A stretch of 43,209 nt of DNA from the NCBI GenBank assembly GCA_016930185.1, contig JAFGHK010000037.1, positions 1 to 43,209 on the forward strand. The letters run 5' to 3'. The number at the start of each line of letters is the position of its first letter. Positions within the stretch are counted from its first letter, which is position 1. Below are positions 27,126-42,256 of this stretch, piece by piece. The notes below the pieces were generated by a model. The model saw only the letters and a list, made by a program, of their open reading frames with translations, was not told the origin of the DNA and did not search any database. This DNA is from Dehalococcoidales bacterium. GTDB taxonomy: Bacteria > Chloroflexota > Dehalococcoidia > Dehalococcoidales > RBG-16-60-22. The translations under genes and the position numbers were made by a program.

Positions 27126-28940
27126 ATGGCCGGAGGGTACATCGGGAAACTGCTATTTGTTGACCTTTCTACTGGGAAAATAGAAGAGGAAACGCCGGAA
27201 GAAAGCATTTGCCGCGACTTCATCGGGGGTTATGGGCTGGGGGCAAGAATCCTGTACAGTCGGCAAAAAGCCAGAGTAGATGCGCTGGGACCGGAGAACA
27301 CACTGGGCATACTTACCGGCCCGCTAACCGGCACGCCTACTCCCCTGGGATGCCGCTACGTTGTGATAGGAAAATCACCGTTGACCGGGGGGTGGGGGGA
27401 CGCCAACTGCGGGGGGTACTTCGGGCCGCACATGAAATTCGCCGGCTATGACGGAGTCTTTCTCACCGGCATCTCTCCTGAACCGGTCTATCTGTTAATC
27501 GATAACGGAAGAGCACAACTGCGCGAAGCAAGCCACCTCTGGGGAAAAGACATTTACGAAACCGAGAACACTTTGCAGTCGGAGCATGGAAAGACAGCCA
27601 GGGTAATCAGCATCGGCCTGGCGGGAGAAAAACAGTCGCTTGTCGCCTGTATCATAACGGAAAAAGGTTCGGCGGCGGGACGCTCGGGGCTGGGGGCGGT
27701 GATGGGCTCCAAAAAGCTCAAGGCGGTGGTGGTAAAGGGAGAGGGGAAAGTGCCTGTGGCGGATGCTGCGGCTGTCGAGAAGCTGCGGAAGGAATATCTT
27801 GCTATCCTAAATAAAACCCCCGCCCGAATCGGTCTACACGAATTCGGTACTCCCGGTCACACCGATAACTCGGCACACAGCGGTGATACTCCTGTGAAAA
27901 ACTGGGGAGGGGTGGGGGTTATCGATTTGCCGGATGTTTCAGGTTTGAGAGGGGAAATGTTCAATGCCAACCTGGCGAGCCGGCACGGATGCTGGCGCTG
28001 TCCAGTCATCTGCCGTGGCACCCTGAACAAGGGGCAGGGAGAATATAAATACCCGGCCGGCACCAAGCGTCCGGAATATGAGACCGCCGCCTCCTTCGGA
28101 GCGATGTGCCTGAACACCAACGCCGAGGCAATCGCCATGGTGAACCATATCTGTAACTCTTACGGAGTAGATACGATATCCACCGGCACGATTATATCTT
28201 TTGCCATGGAACTATACGAGCACGGCATTATTACCAAAAAAGACACCGACGGCATCGAGCTTAAGTGGGGCGACCACCACGCAATGGTAGCGATGACGGA
28301 GAAACTGGCTAAGCGGGAGGGTTTCGGCGCAGTACTGGCGGACGGTGTAAAAAAAGCCGCCGAGAGAATCGGAAAGGGCGCCGGGGAATTCGCGGTGCAT
28401 ATCGGCGGGCAGGAATTGGGAATGCACGACCCCAGGTTCGATTTCCCGGGTTTTGCGGGTATGCCGACGGCCGCCAGATACCAAATGGACGCCACGCCAG
28501 GCCGCCATACTGCGGGCTTCGGACCCAGCAATTTCGGCTGGCTGGCGATAAACGCCGCCGGCCTTTGCCTTCATATAAATACCATGGTCGACGGCGCCCA
28601 ATACGCCGCGGACTTCCTGGCTCCGGCAACCGGCTGGCAGCGCTCGCTTGAAGAAGTCCTTAAGTGCGGGGAGAGAATCGGCGCGATACGGCATGTTTTT
28701 ACCCTGCGCGAAGGCGATAATCCGCTGGAACGCAAGGTGCACGGGAGAATCATCGGGGAGCCTCCACAAACAGAAGGCCCGCTGGCAGGCGTGACCACCG
28801 ACCTCAAGGAGCAGGTATACTGGAACCTCGGGGCGCTGGACTGGGACAGGGTAAGCACCAGGCCGAGTCGGAAAAAGCTAATGGAACTCGGCCTGAAAGA
28901 CGCCGCCGAGGAATTATGGCCGCAACAGAAAAAGGCTTGA
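27126..28940 (+). CDS. Tungsten-dependent aldehyde:ferredoxin oxidoreductase family protein
   Basis: 604 aa AOR family, normal length. Oxidises aldehydes to acids with ferredoxin, or the reverse, using a bis-pterin tungsten (or Mo) cofactor and one [4Fe-4S] cluster. Cluster ligands seen: Cys289, Cys292, Cys296 (CWRCPVIC) and Cys481 (AAGLCLH), matching the spacing in Pyrococcus AOR. N-terminal GKLLFVDLSTGKIE and GGYGLGARIL, and AAGRSGLGAVMGSKKLKA, are family signatures. AAAGGAGC precedes the ATG. The clade (AOR, FOR, GOR or benzoyl-CoA-reductase-like BamB) cannot be fixed by eye; the length fits AOR/GOR or BamB-type. Oxygen-sensitive, pointing to an anaerobe. Confidence 0.9.
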   Translation: MAGGYIGKLLFVDLSTGKIEEETPEESICRDFIGGYGLGARILYSRQKARVDALGPENTLGILTGPLTGTPTPLGCRYVVIGKSPLTGGWGDANCGGYFGPHMKFAGYDGVFLTGISPEPVYLLIDNGRAQLREASHLWGKDIYETENTLQSEHGKTARVISIGLAGEKQSLVACIITEKGSAAGRSGLGAVMGSKKLKAVVVKGEGKVPVADAAAVEKLRKEYLAILNKTPARIGLHEFGTPGHTDNSAHSGDTPVKNWGGVGVIDLPDVSGLRGEMFNANLASRHGCWRCPVICRGTLNKGQGEYKYPAGTKRPEYETAASFGAMCLNTNAEAIAMVNHICNSYGVDTISTGTIISFAMELYEHGIITKKDTDGIELKWGDHHAMVAMTEKLAKREGFGAVLADGVKKAAERIGKGAGEFAVHIGGQELGMHDPRFDFPGFAGMPTAARYQMDATPGRHTAGFGPSNFGWLAINAAGLCLHINTMVDGAQYAADFLAPATGWQRSLEEVLKCGERIGAIRHVFTLREGDNPLERKVHGRIIGEPPQTEGPLAGVTTDLKEQVYWNLGALDWDRVSTRPSRKKLMELGLKDAAEELWPQQKKA

Positions 28941-28943
28941 TTA

Positions 28944-29726
28944 CTACATAGCGCTCATGCCGCCATCGACGGGCATGACATGGCCGGTAATAAAAGAGGC
29001 GGAATCGGAGCAGAGCCAGACCACCGCCGCGGCGATATCCTCCGGGTGGCCGATACGCTTCATGGGAATTACATTCATCATCTTATTTTTCTCTTCGGGC
29101 TTGGCGCCGGTCAGGTAGTCGAACAACAGCGTCCTGTCCGTAGGCCCCGGCAGTACAGCATTGACGCGGATGCCGGCAGCGGCAACCTCGAGAGCCGCCT
29201 CTTTAGTCAGCCCGATGACACCGATTTTACTGGCGTCGTAAGCACAGAAACCGGGCACGGGCTTATAAGCGCCCACCGACGAGGTATTGACGATAACGCC
29301 GTACTTCTGCTTGAGCATCTGTTTTAACTCGTATTTCATACAGAGAAAGACGCCCTTGAGATTGATATCGATGGTGCGGTCCCAGATTTCCTCCGGGCAG
29401 TCCACGATATTAGCTATCGGCACACGCTTACCGTCCGGCCCGATGCCGGCATTGTTAAAGGCGTAATCCAGCCGACCGTACAGGCTGATGCACTTATCGA
29501 CCATTGCTTCAACATCAGCGGCCTTAGAAACATCACACTTAACAAAGGATGCCTCGCCGCCGGCCTCTTTTATCATTTTCACCGTTTCCTCGCCGCCCTT
29601 GATATTGGCGTCCGTGCACACGATTACCCTGGCCCCCTCGCGGGCGAAGGCCTGCGCGGCAACCCGGCCGATGCCGGACGCCCCGCCGGTCACCAGCGCC
29701 ACCCTGCCGTCGAACTGATTAGCCAT
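28944..29726 (-). CDS. SDR-family oxidoreductase (classical)
   Basis: 260 aa classical short-chain dehydrogenase. Seen: VTGGASGIG (13-21), NNAG, Ser in NTSSVGAY, YxxxK in YDASK, VLPGP and the C-terminal GHVMPVDGG. The insert PDGKRVPIANIVDCPEEIWD resembles cyclohexanol/hydroxysteroid-type SDRs. Asp after beta-2 is replaced by CTDAN, consistent with NAD use. AAGGAG before the ATG. Convergent with AOR (3 nt between stops) and divergent from the next SDR. Confidence 0.9.
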   Translation of the reverse strand: MANQFDGRVALVTGGASGIGRVAAQAFAREGARVIVCTDANIKGGEETVKMIKEAGGEASFVKCDVSKAADVEAMVDKCISLYGRLDYAFNNAGIGPDGKRVPIANIVDCPEEIWDRTIDINLKGVFLCMKYELKQMLKQKYGVIVNTSSVGAYKPVPGFCAYDASKIGVIGLTKEAALEVAAAGIRVNAVLPGPTDRTLLFDYLTGAKPEEKNKMMNVIPMKRIGHPEDIAAAVVWLCSDSASFITGHVMPVDGGMSAM

Positions 29727-29834: not shown

Positions 29835-30644
29835 ATGATGCTGCTGGAAAATAAGGTCGCCATCGTAACCGGCGGGACCAAGGGGATGGGGAAGGCAATC
29901 GCGCTCAAGTTCGCTCAAGAAGGCTGTAATGTCGTCGTCACCAGCCGCCATATTAATGAAGCCCAAAAAGTGGCTAAGGAAATTGAAAAGCTGGGACACA
30001 GGTCGCTGGGCATAAAAGCCGATATCTCCAAAAACGCCGAGGTTAAAGAAATGGCGGCGCAGACAATCAGGCAATTCAAGAAAATAGATATTTTAGTCAA
30101 CAACGCCGGCGGCGTGGACGTTACAGGCGGGGACACCACCGACGCCACCGAGGCCGACTGGGACCATATCCTGGACGTGAACCTAAAAGGGGTTTTCCTC
30201 TGCTGCATGGCGGTGGTCCCCCATATGAAAAAACAGAAGTCCGGCAAGATTATCAATATCTCGTCGATGGGGGCGGTCAACCCGGCGGTCTCGGTACTGC
30301 ACTATCACGCCGCCAAGGCCGGGGTGCTGGGCCTGAACACCAACCTGGCTTTTGAGCTTGCCCCGTTCAATATCCATGTCAACGCTATCGTGCCGGGGCC
30401 CATCGAGACTCCTTTCTGGGACTCTTTGCAGTCGCCGGGGCCGGAGCGTGATAAATTCTTCAAAGCCCTTGCCGCCAAGGAGGTACCGCTGGGTCGGATG
30501 GGCACACCGGAAGACATCGCCGGACCGGCATTGTTCCTGGCGTCGGGCATGTCCGACTACGTCACCGGGCAGGTCATTTACGTGGCCGGCGGGCAGCCGC
30601 TATTATCCCAGGCGGCGACATTCCTGTCAGCGCAGGGGCAATAA
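29835..30644 (+). CDS. SDR-family oxidoreductase (FabG-like)
   Basis: 269 aa. Seen: VTGGTKGMGKAIA (12-24), VNNAGG, SSMGAVNP with the catalytic Ser, YxxxK in YHAAKAG, and the tail YVTGQVIYVAGGQPL. Most similar in pattern to FabG-like 3-oxoacyl reductases or 3-hydroxyacyl dehydrogenases. AGGAGGC 4-5 nt before the ATG (tandem ATGATG, either could be used). It is the first gene of the long plus-strand cluster: the glutamate-mutase epsilon gene starts 18 nt after its stop, so it likely acts in the same pathway. Confidence 0.9.
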   Translation: MMLLENKVAIVTGGTKGMGKAIALKFAQEGCNVVVTSRHINEAQKVAKEIEKLGHRSLGIKADISKNAEVKEMAAQTIRQFKKIDILVNNAGGVDVTGGDTTDATEADWDHILDVNLKGVFLCCMAVVPHMKKQKSGKIINISSMGAVNPAVSVLHYHAAKAGVLGLNTNLAFELAPFNIHVNAIVPGPIETPFWDSLQSPGPERDKFFKALAAKEVPLGRMGTPEDIAGPALFLASGMSDYVTGQVIYVAGGQPLLSQAATFLSAQGQ

Positions 30645-30662
30645 CAACACCGGGAGGAAACG

Positions 30663-32123
30663 ATGAAGAAACCGAGAGTCGTCAACAAGCGCATCGATGA
30701 CGATTTATTGATGAAAAAGCGGCGCGAGGAGCTTGACAAGTGGCCGACCGGCAAAGAGGTGGACTTCGAGGAGGCGGCGGCCTACCAGAAGAGCCTGCCC
30801 GACAGCAAAGTATGGTCGAAGGTGATGGTGAAGCTGCGCGAAGAAGGCAGGATGAGCGTTTTCCCCCGCGCCGGCACACCCGTGCTGGAAAAAATGATAG
30901 AACTCTGCCAGGGCTTGAGAGAGTCCGGCGTCGTCCTTATCCCGGTGACCACCGACAGCTATACACGACTGGGTCAATATGAAAAAGTACAGGGTATTTT
31001 AGACGAGTGCAACCGCACCGGCAAAGCTTTACTCAACGGCTACCCCATCATCAACCAGGGGGTCAAGCAAACGCGCAAGCTGGTAGAAAGCGTGGACGCG
31101 GCGTTCAGTCCGCGGGGCATCAGTAGCGAGATTACAATCGCTTCCGGGCTGACGACTTACGAAAGCGGCCTGGAATTCATCACCTGGGGAGCTTACTCCA
31201 AGAAAATGACAATACGGGAACTCGTGGAACGCTGGCAGAACGCCACCCGCGTGGCCGGCTGGTACGCGGACAGGGACGTGATACTCTGCACCGACCTTCA
31301 CGGCTGGCTGCCGACAGCGCCCTTTCCCTTGAGCGTTAACATCGTCACGCTTATTTTACAGGCCCTCACGGCGGCGGAGCAGGGGCAGAAGTCGCTCTAC
31401 CCGCTGGTACACTGCATGGGCAACATGGCGCAGGACATGGCCTGGATAAGGCTGGCGCCGCGACTGATAAGGGAATACCTGGATAAATTCGACTACAAAG
31501 ACTGCCTGATACCGGGGTGCTGTCCCGCCCAGACGCCCCTTTTCCCCAATCCCATGGACATGGGCGGGGCTTTCGCCTATCTGAATTATATCGCCATTGT
31601 GGGGGCGCTTACGAAGTGTAATGCCGTAGACCTAAGGAGCATCGACGAAGCGGCGGGCGTACCTACCAAAGACACCAATACCGTCAGCTACGGCTCCGCC
31701 AGGTGGATTTTCGACGTCATCAGAGAACAGGACATTGAAATCTATGTCAAAGGCGTCGATGAGGAAGAAAAGGTGACCGAGACGGAGGTCAGGGCGATAA
31801 TGGACAGAATCCTCGACCTCGGCGACGGGGATGTCATCGACGGCACTATTAAAGCCGTGGAGGCGGGCGTGCTCGACTCGCCGTGGAGTCCCAACATCAC
31901 CGTCAAGGACAAGGTGCTGGGGGTGAGAGACGCCCACGGGGCCTGCCGCTACCTTGAGTTCGGCAACCTGCCCTTCCCCAGCGAAATCAAGGAGTTCCAC
32001 CGCCGGAAAATCGCGGAAAGGGAGAAGCTGGAGGGCAAGAAGGCGGACTACCACACGGCCGTCCGCGACCTGTGGAGCTTTAGCAAGGGGAAAATCGTAG
32101 GGCTGCCCCCTTATGATAAATAG
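30663..32123 (+). CDS. glmE: Glutamate mutase epsilon-subunit family protein, divergent
   Basis: 486 aa catalytic subunit of the adenosylcobalamin-dependent glutamate mutase family (L-glutamate to 3-methylaspartate in the classical enzyme), TIM barrel. Full-length family match: WPTGKEVD, PRAG, TDSYTR, LLNGYP, GNMAQDMA, GVPTK and RYLEFGN. Compared from memory with Clostridium cochlearium GlmE, the substrate arginines map to Arg69, Arg102 and Arg151, Glu171 to Glu167, Tyr181 to Tyr178, Lys326 to Arg325 and Glu330 to Glu329, but Tyr177 falls on Thr174. The barrel strands 205-225 and 280-300 differ strongly. GGGAGG precedes the ATG. glmS and glmL follow; substrate may not be glutamate. Confidence 0.85.
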   Translation: MKKPRVVNKRIDDDLLMKKRREELDKWPTGKEVDFEEAAAYQKSLPDSKVWSKVMVKLREEGRMSVFPRAGTPVLEKMIELCQGLRESGVVLIPVTTDSYTRLGQYEKVQGILDECNRTGKALLNGYPIINQGVKQTRKLVESVDAAFSPRGISSEITIASGLTTYESGLEFITWGAYSKKMTIRELVERWQNATRVAGWYADRDVILCTDLHGWLPTAPFPLSVNIVTLILQALTAAEQGQKSLYPLVHCMGNMAQDMAWIRLAPRLIREYLDKFDYKDCLIPGCCPAQTPLFPNPMDMGGAFAYLNYIAIVGALTKCNAVDLRSIDEAAGVPTKDTNTVSYGSARWIFDVIREQDIEIYVKGVDEEEKVTETEVRAIMDRILDLGDGDVIDGTIKAVEAGVLDSPWSPNITVKDKVLGVRDAHGACRYLEFGNLPFPSEIKEFHRRKIAEREKLEGKKADYHTAVRDLWSFSKGKIVGLPPYDK

Positions 32124-32156
32124 CCATAATATGCAGTCTTTCCGTAAGGAGTCGCC

Positions 32157-32582
32157 ATGAAAAGAGTACCGACAGTTATAACAGGCACCGTGGGCATGGA
32201 CGCCCACGTTATCGGCACGAAGGTATTGTCCCGCGCTCTAAGAGACGCGGGCTTTAAGGTGGTTGAGCTGGGGATGCAGGTCACGCCGGAGGAATTTATC
32301 AGCGTGGCGCAGGAGACGAAGGCGGACGCCATACTGATGAGCTCGCTGTACGGCATGGCGGAGCTGGACCTCAAGGACTTCAACCATAAAAGGATGGAAG
32401 CGGGGCTGGGGGACGTACTGCTCTACATCGGGGGGAATTTAGTAATCGGCCGGTACGACCCCAGGGAAATCGAGCCTAAATTCAAGGCACTGGGGTTCGA
32501 CAGGGTCTATCCGCCGGGCGCCGAGCCGGAAATCGGCATTGAAGACCTGAAGAAAGACCTGAAAGCCAAGGGGAAGATGTAG
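32157..32582 (+). CDS. glmS: Glutamate mutase sigma subunit, B12-binding
   Basis: 141 aa cobalamin-binding subunit. The DxHxxG motif is Asp15-Ala-His17-Val-Ile-Gly20, where His17 is the cobalt ligand in base-off/His-on binding. SSLYG at 62-66, YIGGN and DRVYPPGAEPEIGIEDLKKDL also match the family closely. It pairs with the epsilon subunit to bind adenosylcobalamin between them. AAGGAG before the ATG, 33 nt after glmE. It is far better conserved than its epsilon partner. Confidence 0.93.
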   Translation: MKRVPTVITGTVGMDAHVIGTKVLSRALRDAGFKVVELGMQVTPEEFISVAQETKADAILMSSLYGMAELDLKDFNHKRMEAGLGDVLLYIGGNLVIGRYDPREIEPKFKALGFDRVYPPGAEPEIGIEDLKKDLKAKGKM

Positions 32583-32600
32583 TCGGGGGAAACATAGAAA

Positions 32601-33974
32601 TTGACTGACGATATCAGGCTTTTAGTAGATTTCGGGAGCACGTTTACCAAGGTTGCGGCCATAGACCTTGATAAGGTCGAGGTCATTGCCACCGCACGCG
32701 TGCCTTCCACCGTGGAAACGGATATAACGCTGGGACTAGAGGCCGCGCTTAAAGAAATTTCAGCAAAAACGGGCATTAAAAGCCCTGAAAAACTTAAGTC
32801 GATGGCCTGCTCCAGCGCCGCGGGGGGCTTGAGAATGGTCTGTATCGGGTTCGTGCCGGAGCTTACCAGCAAGGCCGCCAATCACGCCGCGCTGGGGGCG
32901 GGGGCTAAGGTGGTGGGGCTTTACTCCTTTAAGCTTACCGGGCAGGAAATCGACGAGATAGAGAAGACCGCGCCGGATATTATTTTACTTTCCGGGGGTA
33001 CGGATGGGGGCGACGAGGCCACGATTATCCACAATGCCGGGATACTGGCCAAGACCGGCCGTAAAATCGACAATATAATCGTCGCCGGCAATAAAGTAAC
33101 CTACGATGCCATAAAAGCCGCCTTCAAGGACAGCGGCAAGCGCGTGATTTACACCAGGAACGTCATGCCGGAAATCGGCGTGCTGGACACGGCCCCGTGC
33201 AATAAAGAAATCAGGGAAATTTTCATCAAAAATATTATCAAAGCCAAAGGCGTCGCCAGGGCCAAGGAAATCGTCGGAGACGTGATTATGCCGACGCCCT
33301 CTGCGGTGCTGGAAGCCGCCAAGCTACTTGCCGAAGGAAGCGGTGGCGAGGCAGGATATGGGGAACTTATGGTCATCGACCCCGGCGGGGCTACAACGGA
33401 CGTACACTCGGTAGCGGAAGGCATCCCGACCTCCGGCGGGGTTACGATGGTCAACACCCTTCCAGAACCATACGTCAAAAGAACGGTGGAGGGAAACCTG
33501 GGGCTCAAGTATAACATCGACAGCCTTAGCGAATTTACGAGGGGTAAAAAAATCCCGCCGCATTTCCGGGAAATTTGCCAGGGTTTCCACGAAGGGAAAC
33601 TGCCAGAGAGCCAGGAGGAAATCGACTGCCACCTTTTGCTTTCCCGTCTCGCCGTGGACGTGGCGGTCACGCAGCACGCTGGGAGGCTGGAAAAAATTTA
33701 CAGTCCCACCGGCGAAATGCTGCTCCAGCACGGCAAGGACCTGACCGGCGTCAAGACCGTCGTGGGGACGGGGGGGCCGATTATATTTTCCGCTAATCCA
33801 AAAGAAATCATGGAAGGCGCCCTGTACCGGAAAGATAACCCTTTAGTCCTGAAACCTAAAGAACCCGGGTTCTACCTAGACGAGCAGTACCTGCTTTACG
33901 CGGTGGGGCTTCTCTCCCAGGAAGAGCCCCAAAAAGCCCTGTTACTTGCGAAAAAGTACCTAAAGCAAATATAG
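32601..33974 (+). CDS. glmL: Glutamate mutase reactivating ATPase GlmL/MutL
   Basis: 457 aa ASKHA-fold (actin/hexokinase-like) ATPase that rescues mutases with damaged cobalamin. Start TTG 32601 with GGGGGA upstream; another nearby start is possible. Seen: phosphate-1 loop DFGSTFTK (10-17), phosphate-2 IDPGGATTDVHS, SGGTDGG and a C-terminal VVGTGGPI adenosine-type motif. The classical cluster order is glmS-glmL-glmE; here it is E-S-L. Its presence implies the mutase is a functional B12 radical enzyme. Confidence 0.92.
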   Translation: MTDDIRLLVDFGSTFTKVAAIDLDKVEVIATARVPSTVETDITLGLEAALKEISAKTGIKSPEKLKSMACSSAAGGLRMVCIGFVPELTSKAANHAALGAGAKVVGLYSFKLTGQEIDEIEKTAPDIILLSGGTDGGDEATIIHNAGILAKTGRKIDNIIVAGNKVTYDAIKAAFKDSGKRVIYTRNVMPEIGVLDTAPCNKEIREIFIKNIIKAKGVARAKEIVGDVIMPTPSAVLEAAKLLAEGSGGEAGYGELMVIDPGGATTDVHSVAEGIPTSGGVTMVNTLPEPYVKRTVEGNLGLKYNIDSLSEFTRGKKIPPHFREICQGFHEGKLPESQEEIDCHLLLSRLAVDVAVTQHAGRLEKIYSPTGEMLLQHGKDLTGVKTVVGTGGPIIFSANPKEIMEGALYRKDNPLVLKPKEPGFYLDEQYLLYAVGLLSQEEPQKALLLAKKYLKQI

Positions 33975-33998
33975 TATTGATATTCAGGTAATTATAAA

Positions 33999-35231
33999 AT
34001 GCTGAACCATTTGCGCGCGCTGGACCTGACCGACGATAAAGGCTTCCTCTGCGGGAAGATACTCGCCGATATGGGCGTCAACGTCATCAAGATTGAAAAG
34101 CCGGGCGGCGACACCTCCCGCAATATCGGGGGTTACTGGGGCTGCGCGGCAGACCCGGAGAAAAGCCTTTACTGGTTCGCCTACAACTCCAACAAAAAAG
34201 GCATTACGCTGGATATTGAAAAACCCAAAGGCAGGGAATTATTCAAGAAGCTGGTCGATACTGCCGACTTCGTTATAGAGTCGTTTGCGCCTGGCTACCT
34301 GGATAAGCTGGGCATCGGGTACTCTACTTTCAGCAAGAACAATAAAAAGCTAATCTGGGCGTCCATCACGCCCTTCGGGACGGAAGAGCCCTACCGCGAC
34401 TACAAGGACTCGGATATCGTGGTGATGGGCATGAGCGGCACGCTTTACCAGACCGGCGAGACCGACGGTCCTCCGGTGCATATCAGCATGCCCCAAGCCT
34501 GCCTGCACGCCGGGGCCGACGCCGCCCTCGGGTGCATGGTCGCCTACTACCACCGTGAAAATACCGGCGAAGGCCAGCTCGTTGACGTTTCCATGCAGCA
34601 GAGCGCCGCCTGGTTCCAGGCCAACGCCATGCCCACCTACGAGCTGAACGGCTCGATACTCAAGCGCGCGGGGTCGTTCCGGGCGGGGATGAGCACGCAG
34701 GTGGCGCAGCGGCAGGTGTGGCCCTGCAAGGACGGCTACGTGTTTTTCAACGTCATCGGGGGACGTACGGGAGCCAAGACCTTAAGTTCGCTGGTGGCCT
34801 GGATGGACGAGGAGAAAATGGCCACCGACTTCCTCCTTAACATGGAGTGGGACACCTTCGATATGTTCACCGTAAATCAGGAGGTGATGGACAAGATTTC
34901 CGGGCCGGTGGGCGAGTTTTTCCGCAAGCACACTAGGAAAGAGCTGCTCAAGGGGGCGGTGCCGCGGGGGGTATCCATAGGGCCTTTATCCAGCATGCAG
35001 GACCTGCTGGAGGACGAGTGCCTCAACGCCCGCGACTACTGGACGAAAATTAATCACCCGGAGCTCGGCACGAGCATTACCTATCCCAGAACGTACGTAA
35101 GGTCGACGGAAATGGACTTTTCCACCCGCTTCCGCGCGCCTTTAATCGGGGAGCATAACGGGGAGGTCTATCGGGAAATGGGGCTTTCCGGAGAAGACCT
35201 GCAGGCATTGAAAAATGAAGGTATTATTTAA
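33999..35231 (+). CDS. Class III CoA-transferase family (CaiB/BaiF), catalytic Asp replaced by Cys
   Basis: 410 aa CaiB/BaiF fold. In this family an Asp forms the CoA-thioester intermediate; at the matching position (SMPQACLHAGADAALG) this protein has Cys168. Other family features are intact: LADMGVNVIKIEKPGGD, FVIESFAPGYLDKLGIGY and GEGQLVDVSMQQ. It may be the structural half of a heteromer with the next gene (3 nt apart), as in the two-subunit BbsEF transferase. No strong ribosome site. Follows glmL by 24 nt. Confidence 0.87.
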   Translation: MLNHLRALDLTDDKGFLCGKILADMGVNVIKIEKPGGDTSRNIGGYWGCAADPEKSLYWFAYNSNKKGITLDIEKPKGRELFKKLVDTADFVIESFAPGYLDKLGIGYSTFSKNNKKLIWASITPFGTEEPYRDYKDSDIVVMGMSGTLYQTGETDGPPVHISMPQACLHAGADAALGCMVAYYHRENTGEGQLVDVSMQQSAAWFQANAMPTYELNGSILKRAGSFRAGMSTQVAQRQVWPCKDGYVFFNVIGGRTGAKTLSSLVAWMDEEKMATDFLLNMEWDTFDMFTVNQEVMDKISGPVGEFFRKHTRKELLKGAVPRGVSIGPLSSMQDLLEDECLNARDYWTKINHPELGTSITYPRTYVRSTEMDFSTRFRAPLIGEHNGEVYREMGLSGEDLQALKNEGII

Positions 35232-35234
35232 ATT

Positions 35235-36458
35235 ATGAAAAAAAGAGAGGGCGTCTTCAGCGGACTTAAAATACTATCGTTCTCCTGGGCGGTGGTAGGC
35301 CCGCTGACGATGAAGTTCTTCGCCGACCACGGGGCAACGGTTATCCGCATCGAGACGAGCCACCGTCCCTGCACGATGAGGTCGTCCGCGCCCTATAAAG
35401 ACAACCAGCCCGGCCTGAACCGCGGCGGGTATTTCACCTATTACAACGGCAACATTTTAAGCTTTGCCATCAACATGAACCACCCCAAAGCCGCCGGAGT
35501 GACACGTAAATTAGTGGAATGGTGTGACGTTTTCATGGAAAACTACACCCCGGGGGTCATCGAGAAATGGGGGCTGGACTACAAGAGCCTGAAAAAGATA
35601 AAGTCGGACATCATCATGCTGCGGCAGAGCGGCTACGGCTCGTGGGGGCCTTATAAAAACCTGCCGGCCTTCGGGATGGTGCTGGTGCCCATCGCCGGAC
35701 TGCCCAACCTCATCGGCTGGCCGGGCAAAGAGCCGCTGCCCGTCGGCGTTTCCGCCTATACCGACTGCATAAGTCCGCGCTTCGCCTCGGCGGCTTTAAT
35801 CGCCGCCCTCGACCACCGCAACAAGACCGGCAAGGGACAGCTCATCGACGTGTCGCAGTTTGAGGCAGCTATCTCATTTATCCTGCCCGGACTGCTGGAA
35901 TACGTCGCCACCGGCGAAGAGCCGGAGAGAATCGGCAACTCATCGCCTTACGCCGCGCCGCACGGCGTTTATCCCTGCAGGGGCGACGACCGCTGGTGCG
36001 CCATCGCCGTGACGACTGAAGAAGAATGGCAGATATTCTGTCGGGAAATCGGCAGGCCCGAACTGATAAAAGACCCTCGCTTTAACAGCCTGGCAAATAG
36101 AAAAAAGAACGAGGAGGAACTTAACCGGCTGGTTAGCGAGTGGACGATAAAACAGACTCCGGAAGACGTGATGACCCGACTGCAAAAGGTCGGGGCGGCG
36201 GCGGGGGTTGTCCAGAACGCGGCCGATACCTATAAAGACCCGCAGTTGAGGCAACGCAACATCTACTGGCCGATGCAGCACGCCGAGATGGGCGAGTTCA
36301 CGCACCTGGGCGAGAGTTTCATGCTCTCGAAAACGCCGGCTCAAGCCTACTCGCCGAGTCCCCTGCTGGGCGAGCATACGGAACAGGTCTGCACGGAGAT
36401 GCTGGGCATGTCCGACGAGGAATTCGTAAGCCTGATGCAGGAAGGACTTTTTGAGTAA
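35235..36458 (+). CDS. Class III CoA-transferase (CaiB/BaiF) with catalytic Asp
   Basis: 407 aa. The catalytic Asp is Asp177 (GVSAYTDCISPRFA). Other signatures: LKILSFSWAVVGPLTMKFFADHGATVIRIE, VFMENYTPGVIEKWGLDY, GKGQLIDVSQFEAA and the C-terminal SPLLGEHTEQV. Transfers CoA between an acyl-CoA and a free acid; partner acids unknown. Lies 3 nt after the Asp-less paralogue, so heteromer formation is plausible. A short AT-rich run with ACAAGATACAAG follows the stop. Confidence 0.9.
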   Translation: MKKREGVFSGLKILSFSWAVVGPLTMKFFADHGATVIRIETSHRPCTMRSSAPYKDNQPGLNRGGYFTYYNGNILSFAINMNHPKAAGVTRKLVEWCDVFMENYTPGVIEKWGLDYKSLKKIKSDIIMLRQSGYGSWGPYKNLPAFGMVLVPIAGLPNLIGWPGKEPLPVGVSAYTDCISPRFASAALIAALDHRNKTGKGQLIDVSQFEAAISFILPGLLEYVATGEEPERIGNSSPYAAPHGVYPCRGDDRWCAIAVTTEEEWQIFCREIGRPELIKDPRFNSLANRKKNEEELNRLVSEWTIKQTPEDVMTRLQKVGAAAGVVQNAADTYKDPQLRQRNIYWPMQHAEMGEFTHLGESFMLSKTPAQAYSPSPLLGEHTEQVCTEMLGMSDEEFVSLMQEGLFE

Positions 36459-36502
36459 ATAACAAGTAACAAGATACAAGTAACAAAAAGTGGAGGCCCA
36501 CA

Positions 36503-37378
36503 ATGCTGAAGTTTAAAAAAGCCGGAAAATTCGACGACGTTATATACGAGCGGAGCGGCTATGTAGCCCGTATCACGCTCAACGACCCCGAGACGATGAA
36601 CACCGGGGTCAAGGACTTCTGGAAGGCTTTATCCGTGGTGGAGGAAGCTGACGATATCAAGGTGTTGATTATCAAGGGGGCGGGGCGCGCCTTAGCCGCC
36701 GGGGCCCCCCTGCATGAGGTCGGCTTCGTCTATGGCTGGAAAGAGCCAAAGTCCGGCGAAAAATCCCCCAAGACGCCGATACGGCATCGCATCAAGTTCG
36801 ATAGGAAGCTGTTTTACGAGTGCGCTATGAAGCTGCTCTTTTTCCCCAAGATAACCATCGTGCAGGCGCACGGCTTCCTGCTGGGGGCATCGATGGACAT
36901 GTATATGCTCTGCGACTTCATCGTCGGGGCGGAGGACTGCAAGTTCGGAGAAATCGAGGTGAGGCTGGGCATACCCCAGATGACCATTACCCCCATTATG
37001 ATACTGCGGGTGGGGCTGACCAATGCCCTCGACATTTGCCTGACGGGCAGAATGATGGACGGCAAGGAGGCCGCCCGCATCGGGCTGATTAACCGGGCGG
37101 TGCCGGCGGACAAGCTGGAGGCGGAGGTCAACCGCTACGCCGAGGGCTTTTCCAAGTTTCCCTTCGACGGCATCGCCATGGGCAAGACCTCTAAGCAGAT
37201 GGTATACGACATGATGGGCATCACCAGCGGCCTGTCCAACCACTTCCTGGCGCACACGATGGGCACCAATATCCACTTCGAGGAGGACGAGTTCAACTTC
37301 TTCAAGGCGCGGCGGGACATGGGGGTGAGGAAGGCGATACACGCGAGGAATAAATTGTTCGAACAGCTGGATAAGTAA
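36503..37378 (+). CDS. Crotonase-family protein with altered active site
   Basis: 291 aa, longer than usual because of an insert around 75-105 (YGWKEPKSGEKSPKTPIRHRI). Of the two hydratase glutamates, the first is Asp132 (LLGASMDMYMLCD) and the second is Glu152 (KFGEIEVRLGI). The usual GxGG after it is IPQMTITP. The C-terminus (HFEEDEFNFFKARRDMGVRKAIHARN) looks like a normal trimer helix. An unusual hydratase, hydrolase or lyase for a branched or cyclic acyl-CoA is possible. GGAGG precedes the ATG; an AT-rich palindrome follows the stop. Confidence 0.85.
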   Translation: MLKFKKAGKFDDVIYERSGYVARITLNDPETMNTGVKDFWKALSVVEEADDIKVLIIKGAGRALAAGAPLHEVGFVYGWKEPKSGEKSPKTPIRHRIKFDRKLFYECAMKLLFFPKITIVQAHGFLLGASMDMYMLCDFIVGAEDCKFGEIEVRLGIPQMTITPIMILRVGLTNALDICLTGRMMDGKEAARIGLINRAVPADKLEAEVNRYAEGFSKFPFDGIAMGKTSKQMVYDMMGITSGLSNHFLAHTMGTNIHFEEDEFNFFKARRDMGVRKAIHARNKLFEQLDK

Positions 37379-37384
37379 GGAGAA

Positions 37385-37500
37385 AATAACAAGATACAAG
37401 ATACAGTAGCCAAACAATTACCAATTAACAAATACCAATATCCAAACGTTTGGTAATTGAATTTTTGAATTTGTTTGTAATTTGTATCTTGGTTATTGGA
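37385..37500. repeat. AT-rich imperfect palindrome with ACAAGATACAAG arms
   Basis: Centred on CCAAACGTTTGG (37442-37453). The left side carries AACAAGATACAAGATACAG and CAATTACCAA. The right side carries the inverses TTGGTAATTG and TTGTATCTTGGTTATT. Related short runs occur after other genes (20910-20921 and 36461-36485). Probably a MITE-like or REP-like element; it separates the crotonase from the third CoA-transferase. Confidence 0.6.
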
Positions 37501-37536
37501 ATTTTACCGCAGTTCTCTGGTTATAGGAGGCGGGTT

Positions 37537-38763
37537 ATGGTCTATCCATTAGAAGGCATCAAAGTACTGGATTTCAGCATCGCCGTGGCGGCGCCATTCG
37601 GGGCTGTCATGCTGGCGGATATGGGGGCGGAGGTTATCAAGGTGGAGAGGGTGCAGGGGGAAGCCCAGCGCCTGGGACTGCCCGCTGGTATGGACGATTA
37701 TCTCGATACCAGCGAGGTGGAGAAACTGCCTGAAAAAGCCGACTGGATGGCGTTCAACCGAGGCAAAAAAGACCTCGCCATCGATATTAGGTCGGCAGAG
37801 GGCAAGGAAATCGTCCTGAAGCTGGCTAAAGAGACCGATGTAGTTATCCAGAGCTTCCGTCCCGGCGTGGCGGAGAGGCTAGGTATCGGCTACACGGATA
37901 TATCTAAAATAAACCCTGAAGTCATTTATTGCTCCTTTTCCGGCTACGGCGAGACGGGGCCGGTCGCCCACCGCGCCGGCGGTGACATGTGGAGTCAGGC
38001 GATGTCCGGCATGGTCAGCGTCATCGGCTACAAGGGCGGCGCGCCCCAAATGATACCCTTCCCCGCCTGCGACCACGCAGGGGGGATGCTGGTGGCTTAT
38101 GCGGTAATGACGGCGCTTTTAGTAAGGGAGAGGACGGGGGTGGGGCAGGCCTTGACGGTCAACAACCTTAACGCGGCTTTGTATTTGCAGTACTCCAGTT
38201 TCGCCGAGTATTTAACCGAGGGCAAAATGCCCTATAAGGTGGGGAGGAGCTACCAGCCGCCGCCCTTCGGGCCGTTCCGCGCCAAGGACGGGGACGTCCT
38301 GACCATCTTCGGCACCGGGCCGATGTGGCCCAAATTTTGTAAGGTGGTCGGGGTGGAGCATTTAGCCGACGACCCCCGTTTTAGTAACGATGAAGCCCGC
38401 ATGAAAAACCGGGAGGAAATCGGCAAGCTGCTGGACGAGGCGTTCAGTAAAAAGACGCGCGGGGAATGGGCGCAGATTTTCCGCGACGCCAAAATGCGCT
38501 GCGACCCCTGCCTGACCTATGACGAAGTTATTGCGCACCCCCAGCTGGCCGCCAACGACATGATTTTCACCGCCAAACACCCCAAGCGCGGCGAGATAAA
38601 GATGCTGGGCCTGCCGGTCAAGCTGAAGAAGACCCCCGGCAAGCCGCAGGGTCCCTCCCCGGCGCTGGGGCAACACACGGAAGAAATCCTGCTTAAGCTG
38701 GGCTACAAAGCTAAAGACATTGCGGAACTGGAAAAAGAAGGCGTGATAAGGACCGGGAAATAG
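37537..38763 (+). CDS. Class III CoA-transferase (CaiB/BaiF), third copy
   Basis: 408 aa. ATG 37537 is chosen for its AGGAGG 6 nt upstream; a longer frame would run back into the AT-rich palindrome. Catalytic Asp179 is present (FPACDHAGGMLVA). Other signatures: IKVLDFSIAVAAPFGAVMLADMGAEVIKVE, VVIQSFRPGVAERLGIGY, SFSGYGETGP and PALGQHTEEILLKLGY. End of the mutase/CoA-transferase run. Closer to the standard family than the pair at 33999-36458. Donor and acceptor acids unknown. Confidence 0.9.
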   Translation: MVYPLEGIKVLDFSIAVAAPFGAVMLADMGAEVIKVERVQGEAQRLGLPAGMDDYLDTSEVEKLPEKADWMAFNRGKKDLAIDIRSAEGKEIVLKLAKETDVVIQSFRPGVAERLGIGYTDISKINPEVIYCSFSGYGETGPVAHRAGGDMWSQAMSGMVSVIGYKGGAPQMIPFPACDHAGGMLVAYAVMTALLVRERTGVGQALTVNNLNAALYLQYSSFAEYLTEGKMPYKVGRSYQPPPFGPFRAKDGDVLTIFGTGPMWPKFCKVVGVEHLADDPRFSNDEARMKNREEIGKLLDEAFSKKTRGEWAQIFRDAKMRCDPCLTYDEVIAHPQLAANDMIFTAKHPKRGEIKMLGLPVKLKKTPGKPQGPSPALGQHTEEILLKLGYKAKDIAELEKEGVIRTGK

Positions 38764-40693: not shown

Positions 40694-41395
40694 CTAATTT
40701 TCCAGTACTATCCTCGCGTCAACAACCACGGCGGAATCCTTACAAGCGAACACCGGATTAAGGTCGATTTCCCTGATTTCCGGCGTCTTTTCCACCAGGG
40801 CCGATACTTTCAGCAGGACATCGACCAGCGACGGTATGTCGGCAGGCTCCTGCCCGCGGTAGCCGTTGAGTAAAGCGTAGCCTTTGATTTCCTTAATCAT
40901 TTCCCCGGCGTCGCGCGTCTCGATGGGAATAAGTCGGAAGGAAACATCCTTCAAGACCTCCACGAAGATGCCCCCCAGCCCGAACATGATGACCGGTCCG
41001 AACTGGGCGTCTTTGTACATGCCGACGATTATCTCGATGCCCGACCGCGCCATTTTTTGCACGACCACGCCGTCGATTTTAGCTGTGGGATAAGCCTTTC
41101 TTACGCTCGCAGCTAAGATTTCACTATAAGATTTTTTCACTTCTGCTTCGTTTGTAATTCCTAACTTCACCCCACCAGCTTCAGTTTTATGAGTGATATC
41201 CGGCGAGGCTATTTTCAGGACCACCGGATAGCCGATTTCACCGCTAATAGCGACGGCCTCCTGCTGCGTTTTCGCCAGCCGTGTTTCCACGACCTTTATG
41301 CCGGCACTCTTAATGACCTGCTTAGCCTCTATTTCCGTCAGGACTTTCCCGCCCTGCTTATTAACATCTTTGATAGTGTTTAACGTGTTTTTCAT
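40694..41395 (-). CDS. ADP-forming acyl-CoA synthetase beta subunit (ATP-grasp)
   Basis: 233 aa, the size of the separate beta subunit of archaeal ADP-forming acetyl-CoA synthetase (acyl-CoA + ADP + Pi to acid + ATP + CoA), which conserves energy in anaerobes. Seen: ASPDITHKTEAGGVKLG with His69, matching the second phosphohistidine (His71 in Pyrococcus), the ATP-grasp region VVVQKMARSGIEIIVGM, FGLGGIFVEVLKDVSFRL and IDLNPVF. The alpha (CoA-binding) subunit is not in the window. No convincing ribosome site; follows the SDR by 21 nt in the same operon. Confidence 0.9.
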   Translation of the reverse strand: MKNTLNTIKDVNKQGGKVLTEIEAKQVIKSAGIKVVETRLAKTQQEAVAISGEIGYPVVLKIASPDITHKTEAGGVKLGITNEAEVKKSYSEILAASVRKAYPTAKIDGVVVQKMARSGIEIIVGMYKDAQFGPVIMFGLGGIFVEVLKDVSFRLIPIETRDAGEMIKEIKGYALLNGYRGQEPADIPSLVDVLLKVSALVEKTPEIREIDLNPVFACKDSAVVVDARIVLEN

Positions 41396-41416: not shown

Positions 41417-42256
41417 TTACGCCCCGCCGTCGATATCGATGGCCTTGCCGGTGATGTAAGCCGACTGGTCGGAGACCAGAAAATATACAAGGTCGGCGAT
41501 TTCCTCCGGTTTACCCAGCCTGCCGAGGGGGATGCTGGGGCCGGGACCTACCTTTTTCGATTCCTCCTCGACGGCTTTTTCCAGGCTTATGCCCTGCTCC
41601 TTGGCACGCTGTATAACCGCCTGATCCCTTAAGTTAGTCTCAAATCCGCCAGGATTGATGATGTTGACGTTGATTTTGTACTGCGCCAGTTCTTTAGCTA
41701 AAGTCCTGCCCAGTCCGAGAAGGCCGTGCTTGGAGGCGCAGTAGCCGCTGCTGCCGGGGTAGCCTTCCGTGGCCGCCTTAGAGCCGATAAGCACGATTTT
41801 CTTCCCCTTCCCATCGGGAATCATGGTCTTTGCCACAGCTTTAGAAATTAAAAACGAGCCGGTAAGGTTGATATCGATAATCGCCCGCCACTCCTCCTCG
41901 GAGAGGTCGGTAACGGGGGTGGTCATGGCGCCGCGAATACCACCGCAGTGCACCAGGATATCGATATGACCGAATTTCTCCAGCGTCTTTGCCACGGCGT
42001 CGTCCACCTCTTTACCGCTGGAAACGTCAGTCACCAGGGCCAGTCCATTCCTGCCCTGCGCCTTGATTTCCTCCACCACGGCGTTAAGGCCTCCCCATCC
42101 CTCGTCGCCGGGCCAGATGCTCTTCGGGGCGGCGTACTTATCGAGCACCGCTACGTCGGCGCCCTCTTTAGCCAGTCGCACGGCGACGGAGCGCCCCATG
42201 CCCCTCTTGCTGGCGGCACCCGTGACCAGAGCGACCCTGCCGCTAAGACTGCTCAT
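41417..42256 (-). CDS. SDR-family oxidoreductase with atypical NAG motif
   Basis: 279 aa. Coenzyme loop VTGAASKRGMGR is one residue longer than TGxxxGxG. The usual NNAG is HCGG (LVHCGGIRGA). Catalytic Ser in LIGSKAATEG and YxxxK in YCASK are present, and the tail ITGKAIDIDGG is typical. An insert at 40-60 (KYAAPKSIWPGDEGWGG) is family-specific. GAGGAG precedes the ATG. Divergent from recA; first gene of an operon with ACD beta and the small secreted protein. Likely a 3-hydroxyacyl-CoA-type dehydrogenase, unproven. Confidence 0.88.
   Translation of the reverse strand: MSSLSGRVALVTGAASKRGMGRSVAVRLAKEGADVAVLDKYAAPKSIWPGDEGWGGLNAVVEEIKAQGRNGLALVTDVSSGKEVDDAVAKTLEKFGHIDILVHCGGIRGAMTTPVTDLSEEEWRAIIDINLTGSFLISKAVAKTMIPDGKGKKIVLIGSKAATEGYPGSSGYCASKHGLLGLGRTLAKELAQYKINVNIINPGGFETNLRDQAVIQRAKEQGISLEKAVEEESKKVGPGPSIPLGRLGKPEEIADLVYFLVSDQSAYITGKAIDIDGGA

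Follow-up and report, generated by a model that had tools for sequence, protein, structure and literature searches.

The window analysed here (a stretch of 43,209 nucleotides from a Dehalococcoidales bacterium, whose MAG is 92% complete) carries eight open reading frames on its plus strand in the order SDR–GlmE–GlmS–GlmL–CaiB1–CaiB2–crotonase–CaiB3, which make up a single tight operon (Table 1). The gaps from SDR1 through the crotonase are 18, 33, 18, 24, 3 and 44 bp. All eight frames had been listed in a sequence-only reading, its coordinates hold, and Pfam and NCBIfam agree with its family assignments. CaiB3 most likely starts at the ATG at 37537, which lies behind a GGAGG, rather than at the TTG at 37450. 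Scanning the window for Rfam families and tRNAs yielded no matches; therefore, no B12 riboswitch was found. In the literature searched for Chloroflexota, Dehalococcoidia or SAR202, this gene combination is not described.

Table 1. Genes of the operon and its neighbourhood in the window
Feature	Position	Strand	Evidence
AOR, aldehyde:ferredoxin oxidoreductase, recurrent operon neighbour	27126..28940	+	AFOR_N/AFOR_C
SDR_up, divergent SDR, position conserved	28944..29726	-	Pfam; 70-90% orthologue, divergent likewise in L018-L024, L164
SDR1, short-chain dehydrogenase that opens the operon	29835..30644	+	Pfam adh_short_C2 8.7e-65; orthologue (74-95%) immediately upstream of GlmE in loci L018-L024, L158, L162, L164
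GlmE-like epsilon subunit, putative AdoCbl carbon-skeleton mutase, altered pocket	30663..32123	+	PF06368 3.3e-114
GlmS, cobalamin-binding sigma subunit	32157..32582	+	NF002612 181.6 bits (cutoff 110); TIGR01501 155 (cutoff 135.8)
GlmL/MutL reactivase	32601..33974	+	NF040745 535.7 bits (cutoff 475)
CaiB1, BbsE-like class III CoA-transferase subunit	33999..35231	+	Best PDB 9fn0 chain A, 210 bits
CaiB2, BbsF-like catalytic subunit	35235..36458	+	Best PDB 9fn0 chain B, 244 bits
Crotonase-family protein	36503..37378	+	ECH_1 3.4e-25
CaiB3, single-subunit class III CoA-transferase	37537..38763	+	9br6 223.5 bits
ATP-grasp_5 acyl-CoA synthetase beta-like, downstream; module membership uncertain	40694..41395	-	PF13549 3.5e-88; orthologues adjoin CaiB3 in L018, L159
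SDR4, recurrent in the wider module (with AOR, MmgE/PrpD)	41417..42256	-	55-91% relatives in L018, L161, L163, L179-L182

The order of the operon genes is kept across several Dehalococcoidales families. A search for the same gene order in relatives had been proposed as a check, and the linkage is indeed conserved: GlmE orthologues of 79-96% identity are found in seven other Dehalococcoidales/Chloroflexi MAGs, where the gene order is identical up to the contig ends, and relatives of 50-70% identity extend the linkage to further genomes and families. Among 156 genomes of the order, 17 carry a window-type GlmE, 12 carry an orthologue of the crotonase and 10 carry both (Fisher p = 6.7e-10, kinship being ignored). 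Most of the discordant genomes are due to contigs ending within the operon (L154, L155, L157-L160).

Comparison of the GlmE-like protein with characterised mutases may provide some clues regarding its substrate. Its fold is that of glutamate mutase, with a TM score of 0.91 between the AlphaFold model and 6h9e/1cb7 and a phmmer score of 282 bits against 6h9e, whereas CoA mutases reach a TM score of only 0.4-0.5. In GlmS the cobalamin motif DxHxxG is present in the alignment as DAHVIG, and both GlmS and GlmL pass their glutamate-mutase family models. GlmE itself scores 340 bits against the TIGR01503 equivalog, under the cutoff of 390.1, and the orthologue at L021 scores 348, as compared with 743 for the canonical enzyme of the Chloroflexota genome G555, which is linked to methylaspartate ammonia-lyase (MAL). 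This cutoff alone does not separate the two kinds of protein, because the sister protein at L026 passes it at 408. In the pocket, eleven substrate-site positions (R66, R100, R149, H150, E171, Y177, Y181, E214, K322, K326 and E330) are identical in four MAL-linked reference enzymes, from C. cochlearium, Chloroflexota G555, Gemmobacter and Ensifer. The window protein keeps six of the eleven (R66, R100, R149, E171, Y181 and E330), is changed at 150, 177, 214, 322 and 326, and is missing seven residues of the 151-157 loop; this comparison is alignment-based, the AlphaFold pLDDT being 60-69 near residues 171-180, 291-300 and 321-340. GlmE thus has the glutamate-mutase fold and yet appears not to be a canonical glutamate mutase. 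The retained "claw" of Arg66, Arg100 and Arg149 would suit a dicarboxylate. Moreover, residue 171, which binds the amino group in canonical glutamate mutases, is Gly in the sister proteins L025 and L026, whose neighbouring CaiB1, CaiB2 and crotonase are orthologous to those of the window. Therefore, an amino group on the substrate is unlikely to be needed. Against a non-glutamate substrate, the window clade retains Glu171 and Tyr181, as a user of glutamate also would.

Theoretically, the substrate could be a CoA thioester, as in methylmalonyl-CoA or isobutyryl-CoA mutase, formed beforehand by one of the CoA-transferases. The CoA-transferases and crotonase in the same operon are consistent with this possibility, as is the failure to find a methylmalonyl-CoA mutase in the window's genome (of seven cluster-bearing relatives, five possess this enzyme). 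However, the retention of three carboxylate-binding arginines of a free-dicarboxylate mutase, together with the fold, makes it improbable.

No MAL (PF05034) was found in the window's genome or in 14 others with GlmE-like genes, although the same model detects it above cutoff in 4 of 400 Chloroflexota. The absence of this enzyme, first remarked in the window, thus extends to whole genomes. Mesaconate hydratase (class I fumarase) is likewise absent from the operon. For HpcH/HpaI-type CoA ester lyases (methylmalyl-/citramalyl-CoA lyase), the window's genome gave only a sub-cutoff match in a 757-aa frame. Classical glutamate fermentation was rejected on the absence of MAL and the changed GlmE pocket, and a route to glyoxylate and propionyl-CoA in the style of the methylaspartate cycle on the lack of the HpcH/HpaI lyase in the window's genome, where methylmalonyl-CoA mutase is also missing even though several relatives possess it. 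An ordinary methylaspartate pathway of either kind, whose missing enzymes are encoded at other sites or fell into gaps of the MAG, might be argued from the GlmS and GlmL scores, the incompleteness of the assembly (92%) and the GlmES-MAL-CaiB-lyase operons known elsewhere. It is very improbable given that none of 15 genomes has MAL, that the pocket is altered and that the CaiB of alphaproteobacterial methylaspartate operons falls outside both the CaiB1 and the CaiB2 clade. Since no MAL was found and the linkage is conserved in relatives, neither of the two tested observations that could have overturned the sequence-only reading was made.

That reading had counted three CoA-transferases, but CaiB1 and CaiB2 are predicted to pair up in a single enzyme of the BbsEF type and not to be separate transferases, which leaves one heterodimer and the single CaiB3. 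First, the runners-up to their best matches in benzylsuccinate CoA-transferase (9fn0) score 135 and 169 bits, respectively, and each protein favours its own chain by a margin of about 75 bits. Second, CaiB1 groups with BbsE and the first subunit of an SptAB-like pair of EbN1 (35% identical to it), and CaiB2 with BbsF and the second EbN1 subunit, at ultrafast bootstrap values of 96-100. The EbN1 pair adjoins UbiD, a position which fits a succinyl-CoA:phthalate CoA-transferase (PMC10818641; PMC11659651; PMC13040137). Third, the catalytic Asp is replaced by Cys in CaiB1 and every orthologue and kept (YTD) in CaiB2 and all of its orthologues; the same site is Tyr in the first and Asp in the second subunit of both BbsE/BbsF and the EbN1 pair. 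Finally, the window's genome also encodes a fused CaiB1-CaiB2-like protein. CaiB3, whose nearest relative of solved structure is succinate-HMG/glutarate CoA-transferase (SUGCT/HMG-type), keeps the catalytic Asp and has orthologues in L018, L159, L160, L161 and L163.

Fumarate addition of the toluene or alkane type was also considered and rejected. The glycyl radical enzyme of the window's genome (contig C50) is nearest to CutC/glycerol dehydratase types (387/369 bits, as against 253 for the BSS alpha subunit TutD), and this type occurs in only two of seven other close-relative genomes. The operon contains no BbsG-type (benzylsuccinyl-CoA dehydrogenase) gene.

The crotonase, aligned with EchA8 and five orthologues, does not carry the two Glu of enoyl-CoA hydratases: the first is Asp (Glu in L026) and the second is kept, while the second oxyanion-hole GG is GA. 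In L159, L161 and L163 an MmgE/PrpD gene sits between the crotonase and CaiB3, and in L026 and L156 one lies near the cluster. MmgE/PrpD proteins work on C2/C3-substituted succinates; a C4 backbone with 1,4-dicarboxylates is common to the substrates characterised so far, and the family's methylsuccinate isomerase takes free acids only (PMC12290011). In the window no MmgE/PrpD remnant was found between the crotonase and CaiB3. Neither the MmgE/PrpD gene of the relatives nor the changed mutase pocket had featured in the sequence-only reading. The sequence-only reading had also pointed to the AOR next door, and its linkage recurs, with 53-89% orthologues in L018, L023, L025, L156, L161, L163, L180 and L181, the first six of which adjoin the operon. 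A role as class II benzoyl-CoA reductase was rejected, the nearest structures being tungsten aldehyde oxidoreductases (9mqx, 325 bits) and not BamB (178).

Together, these data point to an anaerobic route, hitherto undescribed, by which branched dicarboxylic acids would be rearranged and activated. In the model that we favour, though with no more than even confidence, the operon encodes an AdoCbl carbon-skeleton mutase whose substrate is a free dicarboxylate but not glutamate, and enzymes that process the branched form as a CoA derivative. With GlmL maintaining its activity, GlmES would interconvert 2-X-glutarate-type and 2-X-3-methylsuccinate-type dicarboxylates via a 5'-deoxyadenosyl radical, with the arginine claw holding both carboxylates, a reaction suggested by fold and cofactor motif. 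In relatives with MmgE/PrpD at the operon, that isomerase could adjust the stereochemistry of the substituted succinate or dehydrate it. CaiB1-CaiB2 would then move CoA from succinyl-CoA onto the substituted succinate, as subunit orthology and the catalytic Asp suggest. The crotonase and one or more SDRs may hydrate or dehydrate and oxidise or reduce the thioester, CaiB3 may recycle CoA to another acid, and AOR may handle an aldehyde/acid pair. As a first guess X is OH (2-hydroxyglutarate/3-methylmalate), and next H or a larger group. Operon conservation, the GlmE-crotonase co-occurrence, the pocket changes, the BbsEF clades, the MmgE/PrpD linkage and the lack of MAL and HpcH/HpaI lyase are consistent with this model. 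Two further observations count against it: GlmL is missing between GlmS and CaiB1 in L025, L026 and L156, and in the window's genus the operon lacks MmgE/PrpD, whose sole counterpart in the window's genome is a 49% homologue encoded on a different contig.

Alternatively, glutamate might still be the mutase substrate: CaiB1-CaiB2 would load 3-methylaspartate on CoA and the crotonase would eliminate ammonia to give mesaconyl-CoA, a CoA-level bypass of MAL. We regard this as unlikely but deserving of some weight. The window clade retains the claw together with Glu171 and Tyr181, MAL is absent from the genome, and methylaspartate, being a 2,3-substituted succinate, could conceivably be accepted by a BbsEF-type enzyme. 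On the other hand, the five canonical residues His150, Tyr177, Glu214, Lys322 and Lys326 and the 151-157 loop are all changed, Glu171 is Gly in L025/L026 despite the same partner genes, and the HpcH/HpaI lyase that would cleave methylmalyl-CoA downstream is wanting. To our knowledge, no crotonase acts as a methylaspartyl-CoA ammonia-lyase. A narrower form of the favoured model, which we consider rather doubtful, places the operon in a longer anaerobic alicyclic (terpenoid- or steroid-like) pathway, where ring cleavage would yield a branched dicarboxylate to be linearised by GlmES and activated by the BbsEF-like enzyme. SDRs, FAD_binding_2 and old-yellow-enzyme-type flavoproteins, SnoaL-like proteins, an acyl-CoA ligase and AOR around the operon or module in relatives recall bile-acid-inducible and steroid gene sets. 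However, Dehalococcoidia abound in these promiscuous families, and no ring-cleavage marker enzyme was identified.

Several known systems resemble parts of this operon. 2-Methyleneglutarate mutase of nicotinate fermentation, an AdoCbl enzyme converting a free dicarboxylate into a branched succinate derivative, is similar by description, but it is a single chain with no BbsEF-like partner. The 3-methylaspartate pathway (Clostridium cochlearium; Chloroflexota G555) shares the fold, the two subunits, the reactivase, the cobalamin motif and the six conserved pocket residues, but not the sub-cutoff score, the altered positions and loop, the lack of MAL or the CoA-enzyme partners. Like the window, the haloarchaeal methylaspartate cycle (PMC5592240) and plasmid operons of Gemmobacter and Ensifer combine a glutamate-mutase-type enzyme with a class III CoA-transferase. 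Novelty therefore cannot be claimed for the GlmES-CaiB pairing as such; the lack of MAL is supported, and the handling of CoA thioesters beside the mutase is well supported, so that the sequence-only reading is borne out in part. In the haloarchaeal and plasmid operons, MAL is accompanied by a CoA ester lyase (plasmid order GlmS-(GlmL)-GlmE-MAL-CaiB-CoA ester lyase), whereas the window has neither and carries the BbsEF-type heterodimer and the crotonase; the plasmid CoA-transferase is a single subunit, and the plasmid GlmE residues are canonical. BbsEF and SptAB match CaiB1-CaiB2 in having two class III subunits side by side and in like order, but CaiB1-CaiB2 are distant from both, lack toluene genes such as a benzylsuccinate-synthase-type enzyme nearby and are linked to a B12 mutase. 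Finally, the methylsuccinate/itaconate cluster (PMC12290011) comprises a CoA-transferase, the MmgE/PrpD methylsuccinate isomerase, a hydratase, a dehydrogenase and a lyase. The window's relatives similarly pair MmgE/PrpD with a succinyl-CoA-type CoA-transferase; that cluster, however, has no B12 mutase, and its acyl-CoA dehydrogenase and CoA lyase are absent from the window operon.

Very few carbon-skeleton mutase reactions that depend on B12 have been described, and annotation routinely labels GlmE-like genes as methylaspartate mutase; some divergent relatives seen here even pass the curated cutoff. The GlmE-like family has probably diversified in Dehalococcoidia, where several branches are without even the arginine claw and therefore must use still other substrates. 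The window would represent one member, with an evenly balanced case for an undescribed AdoCbl mutase reaction on a non-glutamate free dicarboxylate that feeds a BbsEF-type CoA-transferase. The changed pocket, the missing ammonia-lyase and the fixed CoA-transferase partner suggest testable substrates, namely C2/C3-substituted succinates and the matching glutarates, and may offer a first handle on the role of the many CaiB-type CoA-transferases in uncultured Dehalococcoidia.

All eight genes that the sequence-only reading listed were present as it described them, as judged from ORFs, Pfam and NCBIfam. They lie on the plus strand of the window, which is contig C57 of the MAG G000 (1.81 Mb, 92% complete), and the GlmE gene is the only copy in this MAG. 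The intergenic gaps from SDR1 to the crotonase gene are 3-44 bp. The preferred ATG of CaiB3, which is preceded by GGAGG, lies 158 bp behind the crotonase gene.

Features of the operon, its surroundings and related loci
Feature	Location	Remark
AOR	27126-28940	upstream of operon
Divergent SDR	28944-29726	upstream of operon
SDR1	29835-30644
GlmE	30663-32123
GlmS	32157-32582
GlmL	32601-33974
CaiB1	33999-35231
CaiB2	35235-36458
Crotonase	36503-37378
CaiB3	37537-38763	start most likely ATG 37537
Atypical type I CoA-transferase-like protein	L025 5308-7080; L026 12299-14050; L156 8364-10226
Fused CaiB1/CaiB2-like protein	L125 2309-4771	G000:C50
Glycyl radical enzyme locus	L067 (G000:C50:1-9000); L125 (G000:C50:8500-21019)
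GlmE in two overlapping frames	L161 12162-13617	G816
Methyltransferase/corrinoid-protein pair	L158 200-2172	G809
The same pair, second MmgE/PrpD cluster	L179 2051-4059	G000:C46
Diversified GlmE-like family, Dehalococcoidia/Chloroflexota	L027-L039 (G007, G027, G035, G045, G178); L119-L124

GlmE matches PF06368 (3e-114), and its AlphaFold model (pLDDT 85.7) superimposes on Clostridium cochlearium glutamate mutase with a TM score of 0.91, versus only about 0.4-0.5 on CoA mutases. GlmS, which has the DxHxxG motif, and GlmL pass the cutoffs of their curated models. Against the equivalog TIGR01503, however, GlmE scores 340, below the cutoff of 390.1; the GlmE of G555, a member of Chloroflexota with a GlmS-GlmL-GlmE-MAL operon, scores 743. 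In the alignment (C. cochlearium numbering), the window clade retains Arg66, Arg100, Arg149, Glu171, Tyr181 and Glu330. The three arginines are, we assume, the carboxylate 'claw' of glutamate mutase, and Glu171 presumably contacts the amino group there. At other positions the clade has His150 replaced by Gly (Ala in L022), Tyr177 by Thr or Gly, Glu214 by Asp, Lys322 by Ala and Lys326 by Arg, and loop 151-157 is shortened by 7 residues. All 11 positions are identical in four MAL-linked enzymes, those of C. cochlearium, G555, Gemmobacter and Ensifer. At two further loci (L025 and L026), which carry orthologues of the window's CaiB1, CaiB2 and crotonase, the Glu171 position is Gly. These residue patterns suggest that the substrate of GlmE is still a dicarboxylate in the form of the free acid, but probably not glutamate.

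The linkage, for which a search in relatives had been proposed, is kept in 7 other Chloroflexi/Dehalococcoidales MAGs. They were found by scanning a single genome for each species; their GlmE proteins are 79-96% identical to that of the window, and as far as their contigs extend the order is the same: SDR_up (the divergent SDR, minus strand), SDR1, GlmE, GlmS, GlmL, CaiB1, CaiB2, crotonase. Three genomes of other families (G381, G341 and G751; GlmE 56-60% identical) retain consecutive GlmE-GlmS-CaiB1-CaiB2, lack GlmL at the GlmS/CaiB1 junction and have a crotonase (57%) close by. Of 156 genomes from the order, 17 have a window-type GlmE (identity 50% or higher) and 12 have the crotonase orthologue, with 10 having the two together (Fisher p = 6.7e-10, with genomes treated as independent despite shared ancestry). 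Only G807 and G818 have the crotonase without GlmE, and their contigs start partway through the operon (at GlmS and CaiB1, respectively); in several GlmE-only genomes the contig ends in GlmL, CaiB1 or CaiB2. In G816 the window-type GlmE is divided between two overlapping frames, a frameshift due either to an assembly error or to decay.

The three CaiB/BaiF proteins (CaiB1, CaiB2 and CaiB3; heading COA-TRANSFERASES) had been read as three CoA-transferases. CaiB3 does stand alone as an enzyme with one subunit, and it resembles succinate-HMG/glutarate CoA-transferase most closely; CaiB1 and CaiB2 most likely form a single heterodimeric enzyme, on three grounds. First, the best solved relatives are the two chains of benzylsuccinate CoA-transferase, 9fn0 chain A for CaiB1 (210 bits; next 135) and chain B for CaiB2 (244 bits; next 169), and in trees BbsE falls within the CaiB1 clade and BbsF within the CaiB2 clade (supports 96/95 and 100/99). 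Second, every CaiB1 orthologue down to about 60% identity has Cys in place of the catalytic Asp, which all CaiB2 retain, just as BbsE (Tyr)/BbsF (Asp) and the adjacent SptAB-like subunits of EbN1 (Tyr/Asp) have it in one subunit only. Third, contig C50 of G000 encodes an 820-aa protein with a CaiB1-like N-half (39%) and a CaiB2-like C-half (40%). The heterodimer would most likely belong to a family whose members load vicinal (succinate-like) dicarboxylates with CoA, using succinyl-CoA as the donor. About 8 kb from the fused gene is a locus with a glycyl radical enzyme, its activase, a SnoaL-like protein and a lipase-like gene; the SnoaL-like protein is 60% identical to one adjoining the operon in L019.

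GlmES had been seen together with a class III CoA-transferase before. Both occur in one operon in the haloarchaeal methylaspartate cycle (PMC5592240), and plasmids of Gemmobacter (L184) and Ensifer (L186) carry GlmS-(GlmL)-GlmE-MAL-CaiB-CoA ester lyase with a fumarase nearby. The plasmid operons, however, have canonical GlmE residues whereas the window GlmE is divergent, and their CaiB falls outside both the CaiB1 and the CaiB2 clade. What is new in the window operon is the divergent mutase with a BbsEF-type partner and a crotonase, and without MAL or CoA ester lyase; no description of this gene combination was found in the literature. MAL, whose local lack was noted earlier, was also not found in any of 15 searched genomes with GlmE-like genes, while among 400 Chloroflexota the same model gave matches that passed the cutoff in 4. 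G000 and most of the relatives had no HpcH/HpaI-type lyase that reached the cutoff. Methylmalonyl-CoA mutase was not found in G000 but is present in 5 of 7 close relatives. For all these enzymes, absence from a single incomplete MAG is weak evidence, whereas agreement across many genomes carries weight.

The crotonase is indeed atypical, as had been said: in the alignment its first catalytic Glu is Asp (Glu in L026), the second is retained, and GA replaces the second GG of the oxyanion hole. AOR, already noted as a neighbor, is of the W-AOR type, and its orthologues, like those of the downstream SDR4, repeatedly adjoin the operon in relatives. Relatives also carry an MmgE/PrpD gene, between crotonase and CaiB3 in L159, L161 and L163 and close to the cluster in L026 and L156; the closest PDB entries are B. 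subtilis 'IRG1', iminodisuccinate epimerase and cis-aconitate decarboxylase. Known MmgE/PrpD substrates share a C4 1,4-dicarboxylate backbone with C2/C3 substitution, and one such protein, its gene beside a CoA-transferase, was shown to isomerize methylsuccinate, with free acids as its only substrates (PMC12290011, 2025). G000 has homologues only on C46 (49%) and C52 (34%); the C46 gene belongs to a second cluster, together with a flavoprotein gene and genes resembling SDR1 and SDR4. A URO-D-type methyltransferase homologue and a corrinoid-protein-like gene occur as a pair in that C46 cluster and, in G809, beside SDR1-GlmE. Upstream of SDR_up, where AOR would be, L021, L022 and L024 have a molybdopterin oxidoreductase, accompanied in L022 and L024 by NrfD, Fe-S and CCG-domain proteins. 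An atypical type I CoA-transferase-like protein of ~590 aa (weak PF01144) adjoins the GlmE cluster, conserved in families f10 and f16.

Dehalococcoidia contain a diversified GlmE-like family, with up to 4 copies per genome among the matches listed; a clade of nine lacks Arg66 and Arg149. Some members pass TIGR01503 and are probably misnamed as methylaspartate mutase. Their neighbors include UbiD decarboxylase, OYE-type flavoproteins, MmgE/PrpD, Liv-type importers and MaoC-type dehydratases. In L030 (G035), two tandem GlmS-GlmE pairs, one GlmE with Arg66/149 and one without, precede MmgE/PrpD, GlmL and an acyl-CoA ligase. Next to adenylation-domain/NRPS-type genes, L124 (G680) and a Roseibium plasmid (L185, NZ_CP045635) encode long GlmE-like proteins of 658 and 664 aa, which suggests glutamate mutases supplying methylaspartate to peptide natural products.

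The mutase with its intact arginine claw, the BbsEF-type transferase and, in relatives, MmgE/PrpD each separately point to dicarboxylate substrates in the free-acid form, with succinate as their core. Gene order, conservation, orthology, residue changes and absences were observed, whereas we infer all substrates and reactions of the operon. A reaction of the glutamate-mutase type would interconvert 2-X-glutarates and 2-X-3-methylsuccinates, the latter being the type of acid that a BbsEF-like enzyme would convert to a CoA thioester, on which the crotonase and SDRs would act next. As a first guess, the substrate pair may be 2-hydroxyglutarate/3-methylmalate, because canonical glutamate mutase has been reported to carry out this reaction slowly.
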